DNA of 64,000 bases from Pseudomonas amygdali. GTDB lineage: Bacteria > Pseudomonadota > Gammaproteobacteria > Pseudomonadales > Pseudomonadaceae. The notes beneath the pieces are model-generated. The model was given only the letters and a program-made list of their open reading frames with translations. It made no database searches and was not told the DNA's origin. The stretch covers positions 1-64,000 of the forward strand of contig NZ_LKBW01000321.1 of NCBI RefSeq assembly GCF_002699855.1, written 5' to 3'. This document shows positions 32,697 to 38,089 of the stretch, one piece after another (positions within the stretch are counted from its first letter, which is position 1; each line of letters begins with the position of its first letter). Both the position numbers and the translations under genes were made by a program.

Positions 32697-32751
32697 AGTC
32701 TTCCTCCTCCGACAGACGCTTGCCGCCTGTAGCTGTTCTGAAAGGGTTAAA

Positions 32752-32766
32752 GCAATTTTTGAACCA
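32752..32766 (-). promoter_or_regulatory. Probable RpoN promoter of flgFGHIJKL
   Basis: The minus strand reads TGGTTC-N5-TTGC (TGGTTCAAAAATTGC). The critical GG and GC are at exact spacing; two of the -24 bases differ from TGGCAC. The leader would be about 45 bases. In P. aeruginosa flgFGHIJKL is a FleR/RpoN-dependent operon. Confidence 0.65.
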
Positions 32767-32979: not shown

Positions 32980-33171
32980 ATGCTTTTTCGTGCATGCATT
33001 GCCGGCATCGCCAGCGCGAGCCTGATGACCCTCGCCCTCCTCGCCCAGGCCGCCCCCGCTCACTATTACAAATGGCAGGGCGACAGCCGGATTGTCTGCG
33101 CCCAGACCAGCCCCGGGCCTGGCTGGACAAGGCTGAAAGGTCACTTCATCAAATCCGACTGCTCAATCTGA
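32980..33171 (+). CDS. Small secreted protein of unknown function
   Basis: The 63-residue protein has a clear signal peptide (MLFRACIAGIASASLMTLALLAQAAPA, cleavage near residue 24-27). The mature part is about 37 residues with two cysteines (YYKWQGDSRIVCAQ ... FIKSDCSI) that could form a disulphide. It is the only plus-strand gene within flgB-flgL, and it ends immediately against the end of the flgE-like gene. The mature region loosely recalls DUF4124-like periplasmic segments (YKW ... ) but no family is assigned. The codon pattern and signal peptide support a real gene. Confidence 0.65.
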   Translation: MLFRACIAGIASASLMTLALLAQAAPAHYYKWQGDSRIVCAQTSPGPGWTRLKGHFIKSDCSI

Positions 33172-34932
33172 TCAGGTCGACTGAATCAGCGTCTGCATCA
33201 CGGTCGCCTCTGTCGATATGGCTTTGGAGTTGGCCTGATAAGCCGTCTGCGCCTGGATGAGAGCAATCAGCTCATCAGCCAGGACGACATTGGACCCCTC
33301 CAGCCCGTCGCCAATGAGGCTGCCCAGCGTGCCGACGCCCGGCACATCGTAATCGGCAACGCCAGAGTCGGCGGATTCGGTCCAGCGCGTATCACTGCGC
33401 GCCTGCAACCCCTGCGGATTGGAGAAGCTGGCGAGTATCACCTGACCGATATTCTTGTTCATGCCATTGGTAAACCCGGCACACAGGATGCCATCGCGCC
33501 CCACGCTCAAGCTGCTCAACTGCCCCGCCGCATGGCCATCAACATGCGTGGAAGAACGCGAACTGGCGGCGTTGTGCTGCAGCAGGTTGGTGAAGTCGAT
33601 CGTAATGCCCTTCGCACTGCCAGCCGCACCGTTGGGTACCCATTTTTCTGGCCCTGTGACCCGCTCGGCAGGCATGGCCGGTGTCCAGCCGGTCAGTTGC
33701 AGACCGTTGCTATGGGTACTCGCAAAACCAGGGCCGCCGGTCAATGACTGTACCCAGCCGCCAGAATCAAACACGATGTTTGCAGTCAGCGGGTCGGTGG
33801 AATCAGGCATCTGCGGGTTGCGGCCATCAATCAGCGCATGAATGCGCCAGCTGTTGGTGCCGTCCTTCACGAAATACTGCTTCAGCTCGTGCTGATTGCC
33901 CTGGCTGTCGAAAATCGCATTGGCAAACATATCGCTGTACGTCTTCAGGTCCGATGGATCGAACGCCGGAACCGGGCGATCCATCAACGCATCACCAGGA
34001 TCAAGCATGCTGATCGATCCATTATTCAACGGCAGCGACACTGTGCCGCCATTGGCAGCGCCGTCACTGACCCAGGCACCATTGACCTCTTCAGCCGGCC
34101 GCCAGCCTTGCAGGGCAAATTCGGTATCCGAGATTTTACGAAGGTGCTGGCTATTGCCGCTGTATGACAGCGATCCGTTCGGTCTTTGCTCAAGGGTTAC
34201 TTGCAACGGTGCCACGCTGTTCGGGTCCACCGGATTACGCCCATCGATCAGCACATACATGGACCACTGACTGTCGCCGGTCTTGACGAAATACTGCTTC
34301 AGCTCATGATCCGCCGCAGGCACCGCAGTGGCTCCTGCTCCAGACCCCGCATCCTGAATGGTACGGCCAACGACCCGCGTGTAGGTCGCAGGATCGGCCG
34401 GGTCGAAGACCGGCAAGCGCGCGAGCGAAGGCAGCGAGGCGTCCAGGTTGATGTTCTCGGCAACCCGCGTGGTGGCTCTGGCCGATACATTCGATGTATC
34501 AATCTGCAAGTCGGTACGCAACCCGCGCTTGATCTCGCCCTGCTCGTTTGCCGCATAGCCTTGCAATCGTCCACCCTCGCTGTCCACAACGAAGTTCGCC
34601 GCGTCCTTGAGGAACGCTCCGGCACGGGTATAGGCAAGAGACCCACCGTCACTCACCACAAAAAAGCCGTTGCCCTGAATACGCATGTCGAGCGGATTAC
34701 CCGACGTGGTCATGCTTTCGCCCTGATTGAAGTTTTGCTGCATTGAAGCAAGACGTACGCCATCACCTACAGCATTGCGACCACTGCCCAACTGGCTGGC
34801 TGAATACAGCGCCGAGAACTGCGCACGCGACGACTTGAACCCGATAGTGCCGGAGTTGGCAATATTGTTACCGGCCACCTCCAGCCTTTTGTTCGCGGCA
34901 TGAATGCCGCTGATCGCGGTATTGAACGACAT
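33172..34932 (-). CDS. FlgE-like hook protein paralogue with duplicated central domain
   Basis: The 586-residue protein has the FlgE N-terminus (MSFNTAISGIHAANKRLEVAGNNIANSGTIGFKSSRAQF) and C-terminus (VVLADELIALIQAQTAYQANSKAISTEATVMQTLIQST). It has two copies of the hook D2-type module: HELKQYFVK at residues 209 and 348, LIDGRNP at 228 and 367, and GWxPA near 277 and 415. The flgE encoded just upstream has one copy and 441 residues. The gene is cut off from flgBCDE by a strong terminator and has its own structured leader. It could be a second hook or polyhook subunit, or a surface-exposed variant; the sequence does not decide. Confidence 0.9.
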   Translation of the reverse strand: MSFNTAISGIHAANKRLEVAGNNIANSGTIGFKSSRAQFSALYSASQLGSGRNAVGDGVRLASMQQNFNQGESMTTSGNPLDMRIQGNGFFVVSDGGSLAYTRAGAFLKDAANFVVDSEGGRLQGYAANEQGEIKRGLRTDLQIDTSNVSARATTRVAENINLDASLPSLARLPVFDPADPATYTRVVGRTIQDAGSGAGATAVPAADHELKQYFVKTGDSQWSMYVLIDGRNPVDPNSVAPLQVTLEQRPNGSLSYSGNSQHLRKISDTEFALQGWRPAEEVNGAWVSDGAANGGTVSLPLNNGSISMLDPGDALMDRPVPAFDPSDLKTYSDMFANAIFDSQGNQHELKQYFVKDGTNSWRIHALIDGRNPQMPDSTDPLTANIVFDSGGWVQSLTGGPGFASTHSNGLQLTGWTPAMPAERVTGPEKWVPNGAAGSAKGITIDFTNLLQHNAASSRSSTHVDGHAAGQLSSLSVGRDGILCAGFTNGMNKNIGQVILASFSNPQGLQARSDTRWTESADSGVADYDVPGVGTLGSLIGDGLEGSNVVLADELIALIQAQTAYQANSKAISTEATVMQTLIQST

Positions 34933-34974: not shown

Positions 34975-35029
34975 GATTCTCACATCATCGCGCGTAGGAG
35001 ATTTCCAAGTACATTGACTGAACTTTCTG

Positions 35030-35080: not shown

Positions 35081-35104
35081 AAAGCCCCTTCGAAAAGGGG
35101 CTTT
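35081..35104 (-). terminator. Strong terminator of flgBCDE
   Basis: A perfect 10-bp stem AAAGCCCCTT/AAGGGGCTTT with loop CGAA is followed by T residues on the minus strand. It is 19 bases past the flgE stop. Confidence 0.93.
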
Positions 35105-35122: not shown

Positions 35123-36448
35123 TCAAGTCATCTGAATAGTGGTTTGCATGATGGTGCTTTGAGTGGAGATAGTTTTGGCGTTCGCCTGGTAGTTGCTCTG
35201 CGCCTTGATCAGGTTGACCAGCTCCATGGTCAGATCGACGTTGGACTCTTCCAGCGCCTGACCAGTGATGTAGCCGAGGGTGCCCGATTGCGGCGTGCCG
35301 CTGACCGGTACGCCCGAAGCGAAGGTTTCACGCCAGTTGGTGCCACCTGCCTGCGCCAGGCCTTGCACGTTGGCAAAGTTGGTCAGCGAGGTCTGCCCGA
35401 TCACTTGGGATTTGCCGTTGGTGTAGGTCGCGAACAGGTTGCCGGTTGCATCAACGCTCATCGCACTGAGCTGGCCAGTGGCGTAACCGTCCTGGTCCTG
35501 AGTGATCAGGCCCGACACCGACGCGGTCTGGGTAATACCGGCCATGTTCAGTTTGATGGAGGCACCCGTAGCACCGTTCGCGCCCCAGCTGGCGGTCGTG
35601 CCGGTGCCGGATTGCACACCTGGTACCCAGTTGGCGACAGTAAAGGTGCCATCAGTGTTGAACTTGATGTTCGCACTGTCGGTCGGTACGGTGCCCGGCG
35701 CTGCGACGACCAGATTACCCGAGGAGTCGAATGTCAGGTCGTTCTTGTCGGCCGTAGTAGTGGTCGGGTCGGAAATGCTGCGACCGTCCATCAGCGAGTA
35801 CATGGACCAGGTGTTGGTGCCGGTCTTGACGAAATACTGATCCAGCGTATGCGCGTTACCCTGAGTGTCATAGGTCGGCGTGCTGTACTTCATGTTGTAC
35901 GACTTGGTGTCAGTCGCGTCGAACGTAGTGAGCGACGGCAAGGCAGTGGTCGAATTCAGGTTGGCAACGTTGGTAATGGCGGTGGTTGCCTTGGGCTGAA
36001 GGTTGGACGAATCCACCCGCAGGTCGCTCAATGCACCGGTTACCACACTGCCGTTGGCATCAACGTTGTAACCCTGCAACTTCATACCGCCGCTGTTGAC
36101 GACGTAGCCTTCCTTGTCGGTGTGGAATGCACCGGCACGGGTGTACAGCTTCTCGCCGTTATTGCTGAGCATGAAGAAACCGTTGCCGTTGATGGCAAGG
36201 TCGAGGCTGTTGGCAGTACCGGTAGTCAGGTTGCCCTGCGAGAACTGCTGGGAAACCGCTGCGGTTGTTACGCCACTGCCCACATTGGTCTGGCCGGAAG
36301 TGCCGCGAATCGATTGAGCGTATTGATCGGCAAACTCCGCGCGCGACGATTTGAAGCCAGTGGTCGCAACGTTGGCAATGTTGTTGCCGGTAACGTCGAG
36401 ACTTTTGTTTGCAGCATAGAGCCCACTAAGGCCGATATTGAAAGACAT
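35123..36448 (-). CDS. flgE: Flagellar hook protein FlgE
   Basis: The 441-residue hook subunit begins MSFNIGLSGLYAANKSLDVTGNNIANVATTGFKSSRAEF. The D2 module (HTLDQYFVKTGTNTWSMYSLMDGR) is near residues 205-230. The C-terminus is VDLTMELVNLIKAQSNYQANAKTISTQSTIMQTTIQMT. It is the last gene of flgBCDE. Confidence 0.97.
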   Translation of the reverse strand: MSFNIGLSGLYAANKSLDVTGNNIANVATTGFKSSRAEFADQYAQSIRGTSGQTNVGSGVTTAAVSQQFSQGNLTTGTANSLDLAINGNGFFMLSNNGEKLYTRAGAFHTDKEGYVVNSGGMKLQGYNVDANGSVVTGALSDLRVDSSNLQPKATTAITNVANLNSTTALPSLTTFDATDTKSYNMKYSTPTYDTQGNAHTLDQYFVKTGTNTWSMYSLMDGRSISDPTTTTADKNDLTFDSSGNLVVAAPGTVPTDSANIKFNTDGTFTVANWVPGVQSGTGTTASWGANGATGASIKLNMAGITQTASVSGLITQDQDGYATGQLSAMSVDATGNLFATYTNGKSQVIGQTSLTNFANVQGLAQAGGTNWRETFASGVPVSGTPQSGTLGYITGQALEESNVDLTMELVNLIKAQSNYQANAKTISTQSTIMQTTIQMT

Positions 36449-38027: not shown

Positions 38028-38074
38028 TTCGGGAAACCTTTGCCGGTTGACCTGATTCTGTTGTTACTGACAAA

Positions 38075-38089
38075 GCAATCGGCGTGCCA
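38075..38089 (-). promoter_or_regulatory. RpoN (sigma-54) promoter of flgBCDE
   Basis: The minus strand reads TGGCAC-N5-TTGC (TGGCACGCCGATTGC), a full consensus match. The predicted start near 38063 leaves a 36-base leader. The rest of 38028-38306 holds only a terminator at 38275-38296. Confidence 0.92.

Follow-up and report, generated by a model that had tools for sequence, protein, structure and literature searches.

The flagellar hook is commonly regarded as being built from copies of a single protein. Two hook genes are already known from Campylobacter and Rhizobium leguminosarum, and extra outer domains of the hook protein from Caulobacter and Campylobacter. The FlgE of Caulobacter crescentus (591 aa) carries its outer domain D3 (residues 184–328) within D2 (residues 167–183 and 329–469), and the modelled hook width is 245 Å vs. 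180 Å in Salmonella (PMC5069557). In Campylobacter jejuni, where one of two hook-type genes encodes additional outer domains, the hook is formed by the large FlgE2, while the other protein was not found in it according to the available text of that report (PMC5069557). The report does not call the additional domains copies of D2, and by their locus tags (Cj0043 and Cj1729c) the two genes lie far apart. R. leguminosarum also possesses a pair of FlgE genes, of which one was required on each of the five plants tested and the other, FlgE2, is host-specific, as given in the available part of PMC11103875; judging by its tag, pRL120064, this FlgE2 is plasmid-coded.

In this study, a second hook-type gene, flgE2, was analyzed in a 64,000-nt stretch of Pseudomonas amygdali DNA (contig NZ_LKBW01000321.1), the whole of which is referred to as the window. 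FlgE2 shares the D0/Dc/D1/D2 order, the equivalog model, and the D1 and D2 fold with the canonical FlgEs of Salmonella and P. aeruginosa, but it carries a second D2, its gene is split from flgBCDE by a terminator-like site, and a full flgE is also present. Like the Caulobacter FlgE, it appears to hold an outer domain within D2 after the first segment, with a similar length and layout; however, the Caulobacter D3 is described as having a fold of its own and FlgE there is one gene, while the extra domain of FlgE2 is a D2 copy in a second gene. No study of flgE2 as a hook protein was found in the open-licence literature, nor was a description found there of this combination, that is, an extra domain that is a D2 copy, a second gene beside flgE in the same cluster, a conserved upstream block of its own, and another FlgE ancestry.

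A Second Hook-Type Gene in the flg Cluster

The cluster has the gene order flgB-C-D-E-[flgE2]-F-G-H-I-J-K-L, in which flgE2 (33172–34932, minus strand, stop codon included) lies directly downstream of flgE1 (35123–36448, minus strand), the latter encoding the canonical hook protein of 441 aa with one D2. From its ATG start, flgE2 encodes a second hook-type protein of 586 aa, so that the 586-residue hook-type ORF originally predicted to follow flgE was found exactly where it had been placed. FlgE2 scored 461.1 bits against the FlgE equivalog NF004238 (cut-off 400), while it fell below the cut-offs of the other FlgE equivalogs listed, and Pfam Flg_bb_rod, LlgE_F_G_D1, FlgE_D2, and Flg_bbr_C all matched above their gathering scores. 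Its identity with FlgE1 was 39–40%, in two blocks, and a search of its own genome with FlgE2 returned FlgE2, FlgE1, and FlgG as the only matches. By every sequence test made, FlgE2 is a hook-type and not a rod-type subunit.

The N-terminal D0/Dc/D1 core comprises residues 1–155 (34468–34932, minus strand) and the C-terminal D1/D0 core residues 470–586 (33175–33525, minus strand). The F39...Y43 position lies inside the former; residues 39–43 are the gate-recognition motif in FlgE (PMC8983047, in the part available), and F39 with Y/F43 was kept in 47 of 47 E2-type frames longer than 400 aa, some of them being the same gene fetched twice.

Other assignments were tried and rejected. As FlgG or FlgF, FlgE2 scored below the cut-offs of both equivalogs (150 bits vs. 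252.75 for FlgG, TIGR02488), and as a distal rod protein it is without the 18-residue FlgG-specific insert in the Dc region, a rod insert described in the available text of PMC5399456 and seen by eye in the flgG of the window. As the lateral hook protein of a second system it was rejected too, flgE2 being located inside the flg cluster and not in a separate flagellar gene set.

Doubling of the D2 Domain

Three motifs occur twice in FlgE2, namely HELKQYFVK (from residues 209 and 348), LIDGRNP (228 and 367), and GWxPA (276 and 415). The two modules, D2a and D2b, share 45 identities over 126 positions (36%; BLASTP E 5e-21), and their local alignment score was 179, whereas 1000 shuffles averaged 31.0 and never exceeded 68. 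Pfam FlgE_D2 matched two stretches in FlgE2 and one in FlgE1, and a locally built D2 profile likewise found two copies in FlgE2, at residues 170–303 and 320–466. The internal D2 duplication of the original prediction is thus borne out by the motifs, the alignment, and both profiles.

An AlphaFold2 model of FlgE2 was built from a 33-row alignment. Its mean pLDDT was 73.5, with mostly 74–96 over residues 91–530, apart from two ten-residue blocks at 67, and low confidence (<50) in the D0 part, i.e., residues 1–80 and 534–586. The model aligned with the Salmonella hook 3a69 at Z 24.1 (279 residues, spanning 80 to 538) and with the D-II of P. aeruginosa FlgE, 9wx3_D, at Z 24.0 and an rmsd of 1.7 (169 residues over 150–469), so in the structure alignment of the predicted model, D1 and D2 fold as in solved hooks. 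The 9wx3_D alignment skips about 150 FlgE2 residues, which equals the length of D2a. As a strand at residues 156–164 (34441–34467, minus strand), read from the secondary structure as the first strand of the canonical D2, precedes D2a, the latter appears to be nested after this strand: an extra D2 module, D2a (about residues 165–315; 33988–34440, minus strand), would be followed by the canonical D2 body, D2b (about residues 316–467; 33532–33987, minus strand). The model suggests that D2a is inserted into D2 where the Caulobacter FlgE carries its outer D3. The enlarged surface-exposed part that had been expected from the duplication therefore holds as a prediction, based on the D2 matches, the model, and the structure alignment. 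The D2 modules are also the most variable parts of FlgE2, with mean identities of 0.67 (D2a) and 0.65 (D2b) vs. 0.78 and 0.80 in the N and C cores.

Distribution in Pseudomonas and Beyond

An FlgE2-type match was found in 27 of 398 Pseudomonas genomes, two of the matches being partial owing to a broken frame, and the frame was unbroken in 24 of the 27 carriers. The named carriers, with 25 loci, belong to the P. syringae group, to P. graminis, and to further Pseudomonas. The mention of P. syringae in the original prediction fits: the closest named record returned was that of P. caricapapayae, with 94% protein identity, although records very near the window's genome may be missing. Wherever both genes were in view, flgE1 preceded flgE2.

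Three further genomes of the 398 (loci L032–L034) encode a tandem-D2 FlgE of 584–585 aa, whose D2 modules are placed much as in FlgE2. These genes differ from flgE2 in that they follow flgD, where flgE normally lies, without an adjoining flgE1, and in being the only FlgE detected, as whole-genome searches of the three genomes returned no second FlgE. That a tandem-D2 FlgE stands alone in 3 of 398 genomes suggests that the architecture is compatible with being a hook.

When FlgE_D2 was searched in 59 Pseudomonadaceae genomes, two matches in one frame were obtained in three, namely the window's genome, G438, and G445; those of G438 are consecutive parts of one D2, and in G445 the second match is weak and the local D2 profile reads one D2 with a large insertion. 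Second FlgEs elsewhere in Pseudomonadaceae were located on other contigs or far away, with one D2 match each.

Outside this family but in the same order, four genomes of one genus had an FlgE frame of 569 aa that contained two D2-like segments, as checked in two of the four (L164/G514 and L165/G545). Further, another genome of the order, G508 (L166/L167), had three frames that lack an FlgE core (990, 995, and 1017 aa) but contain two FlgE_D2-like domains each, and a 664-aa frame with one such domain; the N-termini of these frames look like lipoprotein signals by eye. This raises the question of whether D2 modules may occur outside the flagellum in G508.

Ancestry of flgE2 and of Its Second D2

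The D0–D1 core tree contained 59 rows, thinned from 90 (L094 and L101 excluded beforehand, and frames cut by locus ends or without the start motif dropped). FlgE2 grouped with the sole tandem-D2 proteins and with one set of the FlgEs that occur singly in Pseudomonas (100/99), while FlgE1 grouped with another FlgE set (97/93). An origin of flgE2 as an in-place duplicate of flgE1 was rejected, a clade of FlgE1 and FlgE2 having a p-AU of 4.2e-5 and a log-likelihood lower by 45. The original description of FlgE2 as an FlgE paralogue was right as to its FlgE type, but a simple paralogue arisen from the neighbouring flgE is not supported, because its core falls into the other lineage and the AU test speaks against it.

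In the flgBCD tree, the group was placed with three of the six lineage-A (flgE1-side) taxa at a FastTree support of 0.999, the other three being elsewhere, and the lineage-B taxa were likewise split; the flgFG support was 0.076. Given this split and the weak flgFG support, flgE1 as the resident gene is only a lean, and flgE2 could have originated either by transfer or by old paralogy with loss.

The D2 trees were thinned to 56, 48, and 50 rows (L104 and L105 excluded, and L061 as well in the constrained-tree set). With all rows, the D2a of FlgE2, on a very long branch, grouped with the D2a of the sole-hook proteins (99.8), and without the FlgE2 D2a, the sole-hook D2a grouped with its own D2b and relatives (99). 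Trees constrained to unite the D2a and D2b of FlgE2, or those of the sole-hook proteins with their relatives, had p-AU values of 0.546 and 0.552, respectively, both slightly better than the free search. D2 may accordingly have been doubled once for FlgE2 and the sole-hook clade together, or separately in each.

The Upstream Region and Its Possible Control

Between flgE1 and flgE2, an intrinsic-terminator-like site with 10 pairs and a T-run was found at 35081–35104 (minus strand), and a simple terminator-like pattern was present in 22 of 25 flgE2 upstream regions. It is followed by a conserved block, GGAAANNTCCTAC-N9-TGNGAGAAT (34976–35006, minus strand), which ends 43 bp before the ATG and is a candidate promoter or activator site. 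The form GRAANNTNCTAC-N9-TGYGAG preceded 24 of 25 flgE2 genes (that of the window and those of 24 named loci), the single miss being L035, where the block has a substitution, and it preceded none of 64 frames of flgE1 or of a single flgE, a set that includes some frames twice. The block had an expectation of 0 in shuffles of the window, and the 30-base pattern with at most three mismatches matched once in the genome, as did the reversed control pattern. A partial palindrome, GGAAA-N2-TCC, lies within the block. Based on the terminator-like site and the separate conserved block, transcription of flgE2 together with flgE1 seems unlikely, although some read-through may occur.

Upstream of flgB, a sigma54-type site, TGGCACGCCGATTGCT (38074–38089, minus strand), without mismatches would serve flgBCDE; it is one of two perfect matches in the window. 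A sigma54-like site with two mismatches, TGGTTCAAAAATTGCT (32751–32766, minus strand), lies upstream of flgF, and no sigma54 site of at most two mismatches was found in the flgE1–flgE2 gap. Since the window holds 49 sites of at most two mismatches vs. 50.6 expected, such sites are at chance level and only the perfect flgB site is strong. Similarly, the RhpR-site pattern GTATC-N6-GATAC with at most two mismatches was found 17 times in the window vs. 10.75 expected, so matches near flgE2 prove nothing.

A small ORF of 63 aa (32980–33171, plus strand), with a signal-peptide-like start and two Cys in the mature part, is convergent with flgE2. Other Pseudomonas loci have homologues of it between flgE and flgF. 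Among the 25 named two-hook loci, 24 show it in the direction opposite to flgE2, the remaining locus ending before it, while in single-flgE loci with a match it has the same direction as flgE.

Published data on the regulation of these genes are given here as far as the available parts of the reports go. In a P. savastanoi 1448A delta-rhpS mutant, PSPPH_3403 and PSPPH_3404 rise while flgF does not (PMC9600179). By the 1448A numbering, from flgE (PSPPH_3405) to flgJ (3398), 3404 and 3403 fall between flgE and flgF, so 3404 might be flgE2 and 3403 the small convergent gene; however, this assignment, deduced from gene order, is unsafe, because flgF-3403-3404 is described as one operon in PMC9600179 (the legend and the text differ in wording), which would not fit a convergent small gene. 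Such an operon also sits poorly with flgE2 as a unit of its own. Delta-rhpS cells had fewer and shorter flagella and about 44% lower swimming (PMC6426608), whereas flagellar genes were induced by RhpR in an earlier paper (PMC4191427), so that the RhpR effects on flagella point both ways. In B728a, Psyr_3477 lies by number between flgF (3476) and flgE (3478), and it is not among the named flagellar genes falling in the acsS mutant in PMC3329529, a weak point as only part of the 19 genes are named there.

Selection, Expression Signature, and Loss

The dN/dS values were obtained from 10–11 loci of the group only, with the broken L045 excluded for flgE2 and the other named loci unused. Mean pairwise dN/dS of FlgE2 was 0.13, with 0.09 in the N core, 0.12 in the C core, 0.14 in D2a, and 0.17 in D2b, as compared with 0.10 for FlgE1 and 0.16 for flgD, which is above the FlgE2 value. 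Its dN, 0.196, was the highest among the six genes compared, and its dS was 1.51 vs. 0.91 for FlgE1, values near 1.5 being close to saturation and the estimates simple. These ratios indicate that flgE2 is under purifying selection. Among the 12 flg genes, flgE2 showed the weakest codon bias (Nc 47.0 vs. 38.0–45.0), which together with a dS above that of FlgE1 suggests that flgE2 is expressed at a lower level than flgE1.

The flgE1 frame was stop-free in all of the 32 genomes whose FlgE1 had at least 66% identity, a cut-off chosen after the fact just below the weakest carrier, while flgE2 was absent in three of them, a fragment in two, and broken by a frameshift or stop in three, i.e., 8 of 32. 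Five genomes with FlgE1 at 64–65% (G386, G286, G085, G086, and G051) had no E2-type match and were left uncounted. Intact flgE2 copies were present in relatives. In all five genomes in which flgE2 was absent or a fragment, the small ORF was reversed as it is in the carriers, which speaks for a loss of flgE2 rather than for its primitive absence. Taken together, the purifying selection and the losses imply that flgE2 is constrained where kept, but is not needed for the persistence of flgE1.

In two loci, L158 and L162, flgE2 fragments lie between flgE1 and the small reversed gene (residues 185–226, 52%, and 476–575, 75%). Another, L160 (G312), has no flgE2 and an flgE1 only 75% identical to that of the window, with flgF at 99% and flgB at 95%; there, the hook gene region looks as if replaced by recombination.

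Discussion

We propose that FlgE2 is an accessory subunit of the hook, under separate control and probably scarce, that is mixed into or locally replaces the FlgE1 hook, a reading to which we give an even chance. The mixed, alternative, or extended hook suggested with the original prediction may exist. Based on the kept F39...Y43, the flagellar type III system would likely export FlgE2 during the hook phase, and FlgE2 would likely be made in smaller amounts or under other conditions than FlgE1. Via its D0/D1 core it might then polymerise into the hook, forming a segment or being dispersed among FlgE1 subunits, which is the step with the least evidence, and would add a D2-like domain at the outer D3 position, thereby widening and chemically changing the hook surface. 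No proteomic or microscopic record of FlgE2 in a hook was found, and weak codon bias and repeated loss count against an accessory subunit in that they would fit a fading gene equally. An added outer domain is not harmless by default, as a Salmonella FlgE with the D3 alone of C. jejuni gave no flagella while that with D3 and D4 did (PMC5069557, available text). Transposon insertions in flgE1 (PSPPH_3405) were picked for reduced swarming, according to the part of PMC4556710 available, so FlgE2 should not be a full replacement for FlgE1. For Psa, the available part of PMC9823363 lists insertions in IYO_RS09875, an FlgE that could be either flgE1 or flgE2, and in IYO_RS09885 (FlgF).

The same swarming mutants bear on the possibility that FlgE2 alone builds a whole, wider hook in place of FlgE1 under some condition. 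The tandem-D2 FlgE as the only one detected in 3 of 398 genomes, the own upstream block of flgE2, and the response of PSPPH_3403/3404 to RhpR unlike that of flgF (PMC9600179, available part) are in line with such an alternative hook; however, it is difficult to reconcile with the reduced swarming of flgE1 mutants (PMC4556710, available part) and the weak codon bias of flgE2, and the sole-hook proteins form a separate sub-clade whose D2 duplication may be independent. We regard it as unlikely, though as deserving serious attention. That flgE2 is a relic, i.e., a long-standing second hook gene that has lost most of its function and persists in some lineages by chance or in slow decay, is distinctly unlikely: absence or fragmentation in five and breakage in three of 32 E1-type genomes, the highest dN of the six genes compared (0.196), and the weakest codon bias among flg genes are what such a relic would show, but dN/dS is about 0.13, under the 0.16 of flgD, and no part of the gene, the extra module included, comes anywhere near 1, the frame is unbroken in 24 of 27 carriers, and the upstream block is kept in 24 of 25.

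The variability of the D2 modules (0.67/0.65 vs. 0.78/0.80 in the N/C cores), the importance of the Rhizobium FlgE2 for colonising one host only (PMC11103875, available part), and the FlgE_D2-like domains in lipoprotein-like frames of G508 would also suit a hook-type export substrate that is released or displayed as a surface factor, such as an adhesin or decoy, without being part of the hook. Since the D0 and D1 polymerisation core is conserved and more constrained than the D2 modules, we consider this very improbable. An adaptor at one end of the hook, at the rod–hook or the hook–cap/junction side, would need few copies, in agreement with the low-expression signature in dS and codon bias, and from F39...Y43 its export phase would be expected to match hook assembly; but FlgE2 has no FlgG-type rod insert, and the presence of the gene in only 27 of 398 Pseudomonas genomes argues that an adaptor of this kind is not generally required, which makes this role hardly probable at all.

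A further reading, which we offer as decidedly improbable, is that the P. syringae/graminis group has a standing two-hook system. In it, plant-linked control of the RhpRS type would bring an old second subunit with a fast-changing extra outer domain into use at times of reduced swimming, and this subunit would alter the width and surface of the hook, e.g., for attachment or for evading recognition by hosts or phages.

In conclusion, a conserved gene for a putative second hook subunit in a plant-pathogen group raises the questions of whether hooks can be mixed and what role the outer hook domains play. Together with the genomes in which a tandem-D2 FlgE is the only one detected and the further genus with two D2-like segments, it indicates that a doubled D2 occurs in several settings.
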